Positions 10,565 to 54,208 of a stretch of 64,000 nucleotides of DNA are shown here, one piece after another. This stretch comes from Clostridiales bacterium. GTDB lineage: Bacteria; Bacillota; DSM-16504; Desulfitibacterales; JAICDB01. The stretch's first letter is position 1. Each line of letters begins with the position of its first letter. The notes beneath the pieces were generated by a model. It was not told where the DNA came from, made no database searches, and saw only the letters and a list, made by a program, of their open reading frames with translations. The translations under genes and the position numbers were made by a program. The stretch is from contig JAICDB010000004.1 of NCBI GenBank assembly GCA_020063565.1, positions 124,001-188,000 of the forward strand. Direction: 5' to 3'.

Positions 10565-11008
10565 ATGTTTATGTTCATGGGGGAATATTCTCATACAATT
10601 GATAGCAAAGGCCGCTTAATAATGCCTGCTAAATTTAGAGAAGGTCTTGGAGAGAAATTTGTAATGACCAAGGGACTGGATAATTGTCTCTTTGTTTACC
10701 CCATGGAAGAATGGAAAATACTCGAAGAAAAGCTAAAAAGACTACCCATTACAAAGGCTGATGCAAGAGCATTTGTAAGATTTTTCTTTTCCGGTGCAAC
10801 GGAATGTGAATTTGATAAACAGGGAAGAATATTAATTCCACAAAACTTAAGGGAACATGCTGGTTTGGAAAAGGAAACAGTAATAACAGGAGTTGCATCT
10901 AGAATTGAAATTTGGAGCAGCGAAAATTGGAGAAAATATAGTCAAAAAGCAGAAATTGATTACGAAAATATTGCAGAAAAACTTGAAGATCTGGATATAA
11001 GTTTATAA
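10565..11008 (+). CDS. mraZ: Transcriptional regulator MraZ
   Basis: [25 protein letters not shown]...[30 protein letters not shown], first gene of dcw cluster. Confidence 0.95.
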
Positions 11009-11010
11009 AA

Positions 11011-11167
11011 TTGAGTGTTCAAAAAGGAGCACGAGAGACACGAGAAGTTCAAGGCGGCGAAGGCTTCGAGCAGCGGAGCGTAGTAAGAACCTACGTGAGC
11101 AGCGCAGAAGACGAGGCAACGCAGAAATTCGAAGTGGATTTCGCGCGGACTTTTTGAACATCCTCTT
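11011..11167 (+). repeat. Full-length copy of dispersed MITE/REP-like element (copy A)
   Basis: gagtgttcAaaaaggagcacgagagacacgagaagttcaaggcgg...gcgcggactttttgaacatcctc; near-identical to the reverse complement of 24871-25030. Confidence 0.85.
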
Positions 11168-11183
11168 AAAGGAGTGTTTGGAG

Positions 11184-21290: not shown

Positions 21291-22406
21291 GTGTTAGTTA
21301 TGAAAGTTATTTTAAGTGGTGGAGGTACCGGTGGCCATATTTATCCAGCTTTAGCCATCGGTACTTTACTTAAAGAGAGATATCCGGAAACGAAAATTTT
21401 ATATGTTGGCACTGCAAATGGTCTTGAAGCAAGTATAGTACCGAAAGAAGGTATAGATTTTGCAACGGTGACTGTTGAGGGGTTGCCAAGAAGACTATCA
21501 CCTAAGGGAGTAAAAGTTTTGTTAAAGCTCCTCAAGGGATCCTGGCAGTCAAGACAAATCTTAAGGAAATTTTGTCCGGATATTATAGTGGCTACAGGCG
21601 GCTATGTCTGTGGGCCGATTTCCTATTTGGCAGCAAGACAGGGTGTCAAACTGGTCTTGCATGAACAAAATGCCCTGCCGGGCCTTACAAATCGCTTGCT
21701 TTCTAAAAAAGCTGATCTTATCTGTACGACATTTAAGGAGTCAATACAATATTTTCCGCAGGCAAAAAATGTAGTTCTGACGGGTCTTCCCATCCGTCAG
21801 CAGATAATTGAAACCTCAAGGGATGCAGGGGCAAGAGCACTGGGTATAGATCCAGAAAAATTTATTATCCTGGTTACCGGGGGTAGCAGGGGAGCAAAAA
21901 GATTAAATGATGCAATGTTGGAAGTAATAAAATATTTTACAAACAAAACACATTTCCACATTATACATATAACCGGTAATGCAGGTTATGAGGATTTTAT
22001 CCGGGAACTGAAAAATCACGGGATAGATCATGAAGCTATAGGAAATATTACCATAAAACCCTATTTGCATGGAATGCATTATGCACTGGCGTGTGCCAAC
22101 GTTGTTGTTGGAAGGGCAGGGGCTACATTTATTTCTGAAATTACTGCAAAGGGGATACCTGCTATTTTAATCCCATATCCTTATGCTGCAGAAAATCACC
22201 AGCATGCAAATGCAATGTCACTTGTTAGGAACGGTGCGGCACTTATTATTAAGGATGACCAACTTACCGGACAAAAATTGCTCAGCACTTTAAAGGAACT
22301 TTTAAAAAATAATGATAAACTACAGGAAATGAAAACTAAGTCAAAAATGCTAGGTAAGCCTGATGCAGGGGAGAAGATAGTAAATTTAATAGAAAGCTTA
22401 CTTTAA
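21291..22406 (+). CDS. murG: UDP-GlcNAc:lipid I GlcNAc transferase
   Basis: ILSGGGTGGHIYPALAIG, VVGRAGATFISEITAKGIPAILIPYPYAAENHQ. Confidence 0.95.
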   Translation: MLVMKVILSGGGTGGHIYPALAIGTLLKERYPETKILYVGTANGLEASIVPKEGIDFATVTVEGLPRRLSPKGVKVLLKLLKGSWQSRQILRKFCPDIIVATGGYVCGPISYLAARQGVKLVLHEQNALPGLTNRLLSKKADLICTTFKESIQYFPQAKNVVLTGLPIRQQIIETSRDAGARALGIDPEKFIILVTGGSRGAKRLNDAMLEVIKYFTNKTHFHIIHITGNAGYEDFIRELKNHGIDHEAIGNITIKPYLHGMHYALACANVVVGRAGATFISEITAKGIPAILIPYPYAAENHQHANAMSLVRNGAALIIKDDQLTGQKLLSTLKELLKNNDKLQEMKTKSKMLGKPDAGEKIVNLIESLL

Positions 22407-22432
22407 GAGGATGTTCGAACATCCTCTTTAAG
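22402..22432. repeat. Collapsed copy of the dispersed element (copy B, palindrome)
   Basis: 24-nt perfect palindrome AAGAGGATGTTCGAACATCCTCTT (22405-22428) made of two right-type ends; overlaps the murG stop codon. Confidence 0.8.
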
Positions 22433-24870: not shown

Positions 24871-25030
24871 CTCAAAGAGGATGTTCGAAAAGTCCGCGCG
24901 AAATCCACTTCGAATTTCTGCGTTGGCTTGGCTTCTGTGCTGCTCACGTAGTTTTTTGCTACGCTCCGCTGCTCGAAGCCTTCACCGCCTTGAACTTCTC
25001 GTGTCTCTCGTGCTCCTTTTCGAACACTCA
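24871..25030 (-). repeat. Full-length copy of dispersed element (copy C, inverted relative to copy A)
   Basis: Reverse complement reads gagtgttcgaaaaggagcacgagagacacgagaagttcaaggcgg...gcgcggacttttcgaacatcctc, roughly ten differences from copy A by eye. Confidence 0.87.
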
Positions 25031-25045
25031 GTTAAAAAGAGGTGA

Positions 25046-27283: not shown

Positions 27284-28525
27284 TTGACATTGCCAAAATC
27301 CGATGTAATAGTTGGTTTAGATATAGGTACCAGTAAAGTTGCAGCTATTGTAGGTGAAATTCATAATGAAGGAGATGGAATAAGGATTATAGGTGTTGGA
27401 GAAGCTCCTTCTTCCGGACTACGAAAAGGTGTAGTAGTGGATATGGATGGGACTGCAAAGGCAATCTCTGAAGCTGTAGCTACTGCAGAGCAAATGAGTG
27501 GAGTTAAAATAGAATCATGTCTGGTTGGTATTACCGGTACTCATATTTCTTCTATAATTAATAGGGGGGTTGTGGCGGTAGCTGATCAGGACGGAGAAAT
27601 AACTGTTGAAGATGCCAAAAGGGTTTTGGGAGCTGCCAAGGTAATAGCGCTTCCTCCAGATCGCAGGATAATTCATGTTTTACCTCGAGAATATATTGTG
27701 GATGGTTATGATGGGATAGTTGACCCTGTAGGCATGACAGGTTCCAGACTTGAAGTTGAAACTAATATTGTCACCGGAGCGGCTGCAGCAATACAAAATA
27801 CTTTAAAGGCGCTTGAGAGAGCCAATCTGCATGTTCAGGAACTTGTTTTAAATCCCTTGGCTTCTGCAGAGGCAGTACTGTTTCCGGCTGAAAGAGAACT
27901 AGCATCAATTGTTGTTGATATTGGAGGAGGGACTACTGGAATAGCTTTATTTGATAGCAATGGCTTATTTTATACTTCTGTGATACCGATAGGTGGAGAT
28001 CATGTCACAAGCGATCTGGCAGTAGGCTTAAGAACACCTTTAAGTCAGGCTGAAAAAATAAAAAAAGAGTACGGATGTGTTCTGGCTGATTTAATGCCGG
28101 ATGATGATTACATAAATATAACAAGTGTTGGCGGGCAAAATTCTAGGAGTGTTTCTCAAAAAACAATTGCCAGTATTATTCAGCCCAGAATGGAAGAAAT
28201 ATTGTCGCTGGTCAAGGAAGAAATTAAAAAATCTAGTTTTAAAGGACTAATTCCGGGCGGAGTAATATTAACAGGGGGCTGTTCATTGTTTCAAGGACTT
28301 GAACAGCTTGCCGCAGAAGAGCTGGGTATGCCTGTTAGGATAGGTTACCCCTATGATGTAGGGGGATTAAGTGATATTGTAAACTCAACTGCTTATGCAA
28401 CATGTATTGGACTCATCAAGTATGGTAAAAAACATGCAGTAGCGAAAGAAGCCGTCGCGACCAGTAATATTTCAGTTAAAGAGTGGTTGGAAAAAATAAA
28501 AATTTGGTTTAAAGACCTGTTTTAA
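27284..28525 (+). CDS. ftsA: Cell division protein FtsA
   Basis: VGLDIGTSKVAAIVGEI, VVDIGGGTTGIALF, GGVILTGGCSLFQGL. Confidence 0.95.
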   Translation: MTLPKSDVIVGLDIGTSKVAAIVGEIHNEGDGIRIIGVGEAPSSGLRKGVVVDMDGTAKAISEAVATAEQMSGVKIESCLVGITGTHISSIINRGVVAVADQDGEITVEDAKRVLGAAKVIALPPDRRIIHVLPREYIVDGYDGIVDPVGMTGSRLEVETNIVTGAAAAIQNTLKALERANLHVQELVLNPLASAEAVLFPAERELASIVVDIGGGTTGIALFDSNGLFYTSVIPIGGDHVTSDLAVGLRTPLSQAEKIKKEYGCVLADLMPDDDYINITSVGGQNSRSVSQKTIASIIQPRMEEILSLVKEEIKKSSFKGLIPGGVILTGGCSLFQGLEQLAAEELGMPVRIGYPYDVGGLSDIVNSTAYATCIGLIKYGKKHAVAKEAVATSNISVKEWLEKIKIWFKDLF

Positions 28526-28551
28526 AGTGAGTGTTCGAACATCCTTTTTAA
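28521..28551. repeat. Collapsed copy of the dispersed element (copy D)
   Basis: TTTAAAGTGAGTGTTCGAACATCCTTTTTAAAA: left-type end fused to right-type end through one TTCGAA, right after the ftsA stop. Confidence 0.75.
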
Positions 28552-38148: not shown

Positions 38149-38229
38149 TTTTTAGAAAAAGTCCTCATAGCTTTTGACACCTATGGATATTATGCTATAA
38201 TACCCTTAAATGTAAAAATTAATATTTAA

Positions 38230-38478
38230 AAAGTGATGAGTGGGAAGAGTAGACAGTGTAAAAGGTTACAGCGAATCCGGAAGTGGTGGAAGCCGGATAC
38301 CTGCAAACTGTTGAAAATCACCCACGAGCTATCATTCGAACGCTTTTATAGTTAGTAGAATGATACGGTCTCAGATGGCCGTTATCTTAACGAGTGGCTT
38401 TCAACTTTTCCATTGTTGAAAGCTAATAAAGGTGGTACAGCGGGAACTCTCGCCCTTTTTTAAGGGGCGAGTTTTTTT
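38230..38478 (+). promoter_or_regulatory. T-box leader (tRNA-Ile responsive) upstream of ileS
   Basis: T-box AAAGGTGGTACAGCG (38428-38442), candidate ATC specifier (38317-38319) before CCCAC that can pair with GTGGG (38240-38244), terminator ACTCTCGCCC...GGGGCGAGTTTTTTT. Confidence 0.88.
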
Positions 38479-41301: not shown

Positions 41302-41322
41302 GAGAGTGTTCGAAAAGGAGCA
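41302..41322 (+). repeat. Left-end-only remnant of the dispersed element (copy E)
   Basis: TTTAAGAGAGTGTTCGAAAAGGAGCAC directly at the ileS stop codon, then homology ends. Confidence 0.7.
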
Positions 41323-41347
41323 CATAATTTGCTTTAGGGGTGATCTT

Positions 41348-53975: not shown

Positions 53976-54024
53976 CTTTAAGTGCGTGTTCGAAAAGGAG
54001 CAACTTTTCGAACATCCTCTTTAA
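53976..54024 (+). repeat. Internally deleted copy of the dispersed element (copy F)
   Basis: CTTTAAGTGCGTGTTCGAAAAGGAGCAACTTTTCGAACATCCTCTTTAAG: both terminal inverted repeats, almost no interior. Confidence 0.8.
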
Positions 54025-54114
54025 GTGCGTGTTCGAAAAGGAGCACGAGAGACACGAGAAGTTCAAGGCGGCGAAGGCTCTGAGCAGCGGAGCGTACATT
54101 GAAGTACGTGAGCA
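54020..54114 (+). repeat. Right-truncated copy of the dispersed element (copy G), tandem with copy F
   Basis: TTTAAGTGCGTGTTCGAAAAGGAGCACGAGAGACACGAGAAGTTCAAGGCGGCGAAGGCTCTGAGCAGCGGAGCGTAC...GTACGTGAGCAG, then homology to copy A stops. Confidence 0.83.
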
Positions 54115-54208
54115 GTCCTGTGAGGCTAGCAAGGGGTTAGTGGGAATAGTGGAACTGTTTCCTCCCCTTGTAGCCTTCTTGTTAGTCGGACTAACGGGAA
54201 GGTTTTTT
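54111..54208 (+). promoter_or_regulatory. PyrR-type transcription attenuator upstream of uraA
   Basis: Binding loop CAGTCCTGTGAGGCTAGCAAGGGG; antiterminator GGCTAGCAAGGGG (54124-54136) with CCCCTTGTAGCC (54164-54175); terminator CCTTCTTGTTAGT-cgg-ACTAACGGGAAGG-TTTTTTT. Confidence 0.85.

Follow-up and report, generated by a model that had tools for sequence, protein, structure and literature searches.

What kind of sequence is the 155-bp repeat that lies between mraZ and rsmH in this Clostridiales genome, and how did it come to occupy this and many other sites? The preliminary description of the window, that is, the entire analysed stretch of 64,000 nucleotides, had proposed a dispersed repeat family with imperfect inverted-repeat ends and no plausible gene inside, and had offered two interpretations, a non-autonomous mobile element or an extragenic palindromic repeat.

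Copies in the window and distribution of the family

The window contains seven copies or remnants of the element in total, all at the places where they had originally been reported. The first full-length copy (11011-11165, plus strand), located between mraZ, which ends at 11008, and rsmH, has the ends TTGAG-TGTTCAAAAAGG and CTTTTTGAACA-TCCTC and shows a compensatory G to A and C to T change across its two arms; it is flanked by the target-site duplication TAAAA (11006-11010) and TTAAA (11166-11170), which agree in four of five positions. The second full-length copy (24877-25031, minus strand) is 93% identical to the first by BLAST, is oriented opposite to the flanking genes, is predicted to fold as RNA with -64.6 kcal/mol (z -5.0), and is bounded by TCAAA (24872-24876) and TTAAA (25032-25036), again a 4/5 match. 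Both copies are real, whereas the limits first given for them, 11011-11167 and 24871-25030, take in part of the target duplications; the register of the 5-bp duplications in the window was set from the duplication analysis of all copies. Two collapsed copies are present, namely the perfect palindrome GAGGATGTTCGAACATCCTC at 22407-22426, which consists of two right ends and has TTTAA on either side (22402-22406 and 22427-22431), and GTGAGTGTTCGAACATCCTT at 28527-28546 (plus strand), upstream of ftsZ, in which the left and right ends are fused at TTCGAA between the flanks TTAAA (28522-28526) and TTTAA (28547-28551). A remnant of the left end only, GAGAGTGTTCGAAAAGGAGCAC (41302-41324, plus strand), is found immediately 3' of a stop codon. 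Finally, a mini copy on the plus strand (53982-54019), composed of both terminal repeats and a 6-bp interior and flanked by TTTAA at 53977-53981 and 54020-54024, shares the latter TTTAA with the left 91 bp of a second, tandem copy (54025-54115, plus strand), the right part of which is gone. The terminal repeats agree with the letters originally given for them, and the interior of the element holds only short incidental open reading frames and no transposase gene. The repeat has not turned out to be a coding or ribosomal fragment. The element has no match in Rfam; the only Rfam match in the window is a T-box leader elsewhere, at 38227-38460 (RF00230, 135.5 bits).

The source genome, a 2.36 Mb draft in 29 contigs that is 80.8% complete, yields 54 BLAST matches to the element, 12 of which cover almost the full query length with 82-100% identity, and the repeat therefore is not a chance occurrence. 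The terminal motif TGTTCGAAAAG has at least 100 exact sites in this genome and the collapsed form GTTCGAACATCC has 10, compared to 0 for a reversed control. When isolated end motifs in the source genome were followed out, only truncated copies were found, with the exception of contig C5 (see below). Among the Desulfotomaculales, 22 of 113 genomes carry the MITE; it is present in Desulfoscipio geothermicus (48 exact occurrences of the end motif against 1 for the control), Desulforadius tongensis, MES5, PH28_bin88 and BRH_c8a, and the genome designated G440 contains more than 30 diverged, mostly full-length copies that are 72-84% identical to the query from D. geothermicus. In a sample of 40 relatives, 39 lacked the MITE and the remaining one gave a weak match, and plasmids, phages and viral contigs yielded no copy at the search sensitivity applied. 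The patchy distribution, together with the high identity between families, would be compatible with horizontal movement. The family is without description in the open literature searched; its kind, the hairpin MITE, is well known.

Ends, target duplications and a candidate insertion-sequence partner

Copies terminate in GTGAG-TGTTCGAAAAGG on the left and CTTTTCGAACA-TCCTC on the right; in a longer reading, the left end is GTGAG-TGTTCGAAAAGGAGCAC and the right end GCGGACTTTTCGAACA-TCCTC. The terminal inverted repeat common to both ends in the 78 non-redundant two-ended copies is GWGNNTGTTCGAAAAG. Directly outside the ends are 5-bp, TTWAA-like target duplications, which are exact in 38 of these 78 copies, whereas permutation gave 9.3 on average and 19 at most. 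Exactly five columns show more agreement between the flanks than expected; one base further out, on both sides, agreement is at the chance level. Even unusual targets, such as TAACA, TTCTA, TTAGA, AAGAA and TACAA, are found on both sides of a copy. The same applies to the diverged copies of G440, where 13 of 23 have exact 5-bp duplications (mean 1.9), including the unusual pairs CTAAT/CTAAT and TTACT/TTACT, and also TAATA/TAATA. One empty site was found: the element-free sequence GACC-TTTAA-GGTGG of D. geothermicus (locus L113) corresponds to GACC-TTTAA-[element]-ATAAGGTGG in Peptococcaceae BRH_c8a (L094), where a copy with a long internal insert is located at the 3' end of a gene whose orthologue is in L113. 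The product of this gene, judging by its translation, is presumably an FHA-domain-like protein; the insertion removed its last codons, and the new stop codon, TGA, comes from the left end of the element (TTTAA-ATGAG).

The same ends were detected in insertion sequences (IS). D. geothermicus harbors a multi-copy IS that carries the MITE end motif and breaks contigs; its left end, GAGTC-TGTTCGAAAAG, and right end, GAGCC-TGTTCGAAAAG, were seen at contig ends, the two never on one intact copy. The transposase pieces match PF01609 (DDE_Tnp_1) and PF05598 (DUF772), and the best NCBIfam model is NF033551 (IS1182). An intact relative, 47% identical, resides on an Alicyclobacillus plasmid and reads GAGCG-TGTCCGAAAAG ... 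CTTTTCGGACA-ACCTC with TATTA on both sides, that is, GAGCG/GAGGT-TGTCCGAAAAG when both ends are written from the outside in; given these ends and the TATTA repeats, its end architecture and duplication length are the same as those of the MITE. In the source genome, the end of contig C5 contains TTTAAA-GAGCG-TGTTCGAAAAG followed by the subterminal sequence AAATAGGAAATGCACC, as in the D. geothermicus IS, with only 96 bp of the IS present before the contig ends. No complete IS was recovered from the source genome, where a tblastn search yielded just one distant transposase, and the IS copy in another genome, G502, has no recognisable ends. The transposases score 70-110 bits overall against the IS1182 model, below its curated cut-off of 270; because the two near-complete ones reach only 110 and 104 bits (E 1.3e-31 and 1.1e-29), we use the label "IS1182-like". 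Close relatives of these transposases are encoded in 2 of the 113 Desulfotomaculales genomes, both MITE carriers, a weak association (2 of 22 carriers and 0 of 91 other genomes). The interior of the MITE bears no visible relation to the IS sequences beyond the ends, so that the MITE is not just an internally deleted form of the IS seen here.

Taken together, the 16-17 bp terminal inverted repeats, the 5-bp duplications, the empty site and the IS1182-like elements with the same ends support the first of the two original interpretations, a non-autonomous element. The second, in its REP/BIME form, would have an extragenic palindrome moved by a RAYT (an HUH enzyme of the IS200/IS605 type) via single-stranded hairpins; the element is indeed palindromic, extragenic, of high copy number and capable of forming a strong hairpin. 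However, its copies show clear 5-bp target duplications, which RAYT/IS200 elements are not known to make, and it shares DDE-type terminal repeats with the IS1182-like IS, so that the REP/RAYT type, characterized by insertion without target duplication, does not fit and we consider this origin extremely improbable. Integron attC sites were rejected as well, the GTT/AAC core orientation being the wrong way round.

The element is thus very probably a MITE mobilised in trans by an IS1182-like DDE transposase, with copies decaying by deletion, and such a transposase is the most likely agent of mobilisation judging from the shared ends. The enzyme, supplied in trans, would recognise the terminal inverted repeats GWGNNTGTTCGAAAAG and insert the element at AT-rich sites of 5 bp (TTWAA), with gap repair producing the 5-bp duplication; later deletions inside the hairpin, in many cases running precisely from one TTCGAA motif to the other, would then leave remnants of 30-50 bp, the collapsed copies probably being generated by hairpin-assisted replication slippage.

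Decay, nesting and conservation of the hairpin

Copies are found reduced to 50 or 30 bp. The source genome has ten exact GTTCGAACATCC sites, full copies equal the collapsed form plus one interior between two TTCGAA motifs, and some IS1182 relatives such as IS1272 target palindromes (PMC5678879); all of this could be taken to mean that the interior inserts at TTCGAA into 30-bp sequences that were there first as targets, or that are mini-elements in their own right. This reading appears very unlikely, in view of the intermediate deletions of 24 to 148 bp, which form a continuous series, and of the 5-bp duplication, which lies outside the collapsed sequence and implies that the outer ends belong to the unit that inserts. 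Decay of a MITE by internal deletion agrees with this series, which runs from 148 bp down to a collapsed 20-bp core with both TTCGAA motifs merged.

Nested palindromes inside MITE copies are common. In the source genome, an element of about 104 bp, CCCGGCACTTA...TAAGTGCCGGG, takes the place of the apical stem-loop of the MITE (L195, L203, L205, L212), and MITE copies of D. geothermicus contain a nested palindrome beginning with GGTGCCAGGTGTTGAAAG. Four G440 copies (L235, L241, L243, L244) with various targets share the same nested GGTGACACACCTGTTTCACAGGAATGTCCCC insert, so the loaded MITE must itself have transposed. Another near-perfect palindrome, GGTGCCAGGTGTTGAAAGTTGAAAATC...CACCTGGCACC, is nested in many MITE copies of D. 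geothermicus (L112-L118, L169-L175).

The whole element forms one long imperfect hairpin (z -5.0), which is preserved through compensatory changes. In an alignment of 26 full copies from six genomes, standard pairs make up 99.1% of the pair cells (95.5% after shuffling), 12 pairs are changed on both sides (4.4 by shuffling), and the covariation score is 0.145 (0.078 after shuffling); when the structure is slid along the alignment, paired cells drop to 28-43%, a control that is flattering as the structure was drawn from the same alignment. On the element strand, G-U wobbles outnumber A-C in each of three groups (21:7, 13:4 and 55:13), and this strand folds better as RNA. Of the 26 copies classified in the source genome by crude ORF calls, 24 have co-directional genes on either side, in many cases with the upstream stop codon no more than 20 bp away, and 22 of these 24 read with the genes (22:2, p = 3.6e-5).

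The pairing, the G-U excess and the orientation bias of the source genome would all be expected from a domesticated structured RNA, a former MITE serving as a processing site or 3' hairpin, with its stem now under selection at the transcript level. We regard such domestication as unlikely: by equally crude ORF calls, the orientation bias is opposite in G440 (3:14 with versus against the genes) and absent in the other genomes (9:10); hairpin-templated correction of imperfect palindromes also yields compensatory change without selection; a structure derived from the same alignment favours G-U pairs; and many copies are broken, their position being ordinary. Searches for terminator or promoter activity produced scattered consensus matches only, with no consistent signal. 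Given the opposite bias in G440, RNA stability of the transcribed strand does not account for the preferred orientation in the source genome. One idea is that, at gene ends in the source genome, the left end RTGAG, which adds TGA after TTTAA, might make this orientation the safer one; by the same idea, the left ends in G440 (GTGCG, GTACG) would give no such TGA.

Insertions in structured RNAs and relation to known elements

Two T-box leaders, from different organisms, carry a MITE copy in the same loop: L006 scores 88.8 bits with its 167-nt insert, and L070 scores 103 bits with one of 168 nt. In a further T-box leader, L005 (1236-1780), a second palindromic element and the MITE are present apparently in tandem, upstream of the antiterminator GGGTGGTACCGCG, which is still there.

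This second palindromic family, with a length of about 96-109 bp and the ends CCCGGCACTTA/TAAGTGCCGGG (L187-L214; G000:C18:1616-1717, C3:39952-40055), is represented by 28 exact end motifs against 0 for the control. It often exactly replaces the MITE apical stem-loop, much as IS1272 has been described to insert by replacing stem-loops. In the RNase P RNA of the source genome (RF00010, 318.8 bits), a copy of the second element makes up the extended P12 stem (L207:1501-1609); a cobalamin riboswitch (97.7 bits) has another copy at the tip of one of its peripheral stems (L191:1501-1602), and a diverged copy is located between two tRNAs in a tRNA cluster with the large SRP RNA (L188:247-1866).

A tentative and rather doubtful reading of both families would be that the MITE and the second element are hairpin-grafting elements, which enter loops or replace apical stem-loops of T-box leaders, the cobalamin riboswitch, P12 of RNase P and each other, leaving the host fold unbroken, with the stems kept by RNA-level selection.

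Several systems resemble the MITE in part. The enterobacterial ERIC/CIR and neisserial NEMIS are intergenic hairpin MITEs of about 100-160 bp with internal deletions, often co-transcribed in operons; by description, size, hairpin and internal deletions are alike, whereas ends, targets and hosts differ. The transcripts of the QMITE elements of Coxiella likewise fold into stable hairpins, but their duplications are 7-9 bp and their ends are different (PMC10969869). In Methanosarcina acetivorans, the MITEs that partner ISMac2, an IS of the IS1182 family, are also short (160-169 bp, 7-14 copies) and gene-less, with inverted repeats of 25-26 bp; they are set apart, by description, in being archaeal and having direct repeats of 4 or 0 bp (PMC3852290). 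IS1272 of Staphylococcus, a member of the IS1182 family, has a related transposase and terminal inverted repeats but replaces target stem-loops without target duplication (PMC5678879), unlike the present element with its 5-bp duplications in TTWAA.

The MITE family described here spans a group of anaerobic Bacillota and is now tied to a putative IS partner, and its end sequences and target rule make annotation of the family straightforward. It is raised slightly above a routine MITE by its conserved hairpin, its orientation bias and its insertions in riboswitches. The many diverged copies of the G440 lineage, with their clean duplications, provide a test case for whether selection on the RNA or mutational correction keeps the stems, and the family is also a useful case for the way in which peripheral stems of riboswitches and ribozymes are enlarged by palindromes.
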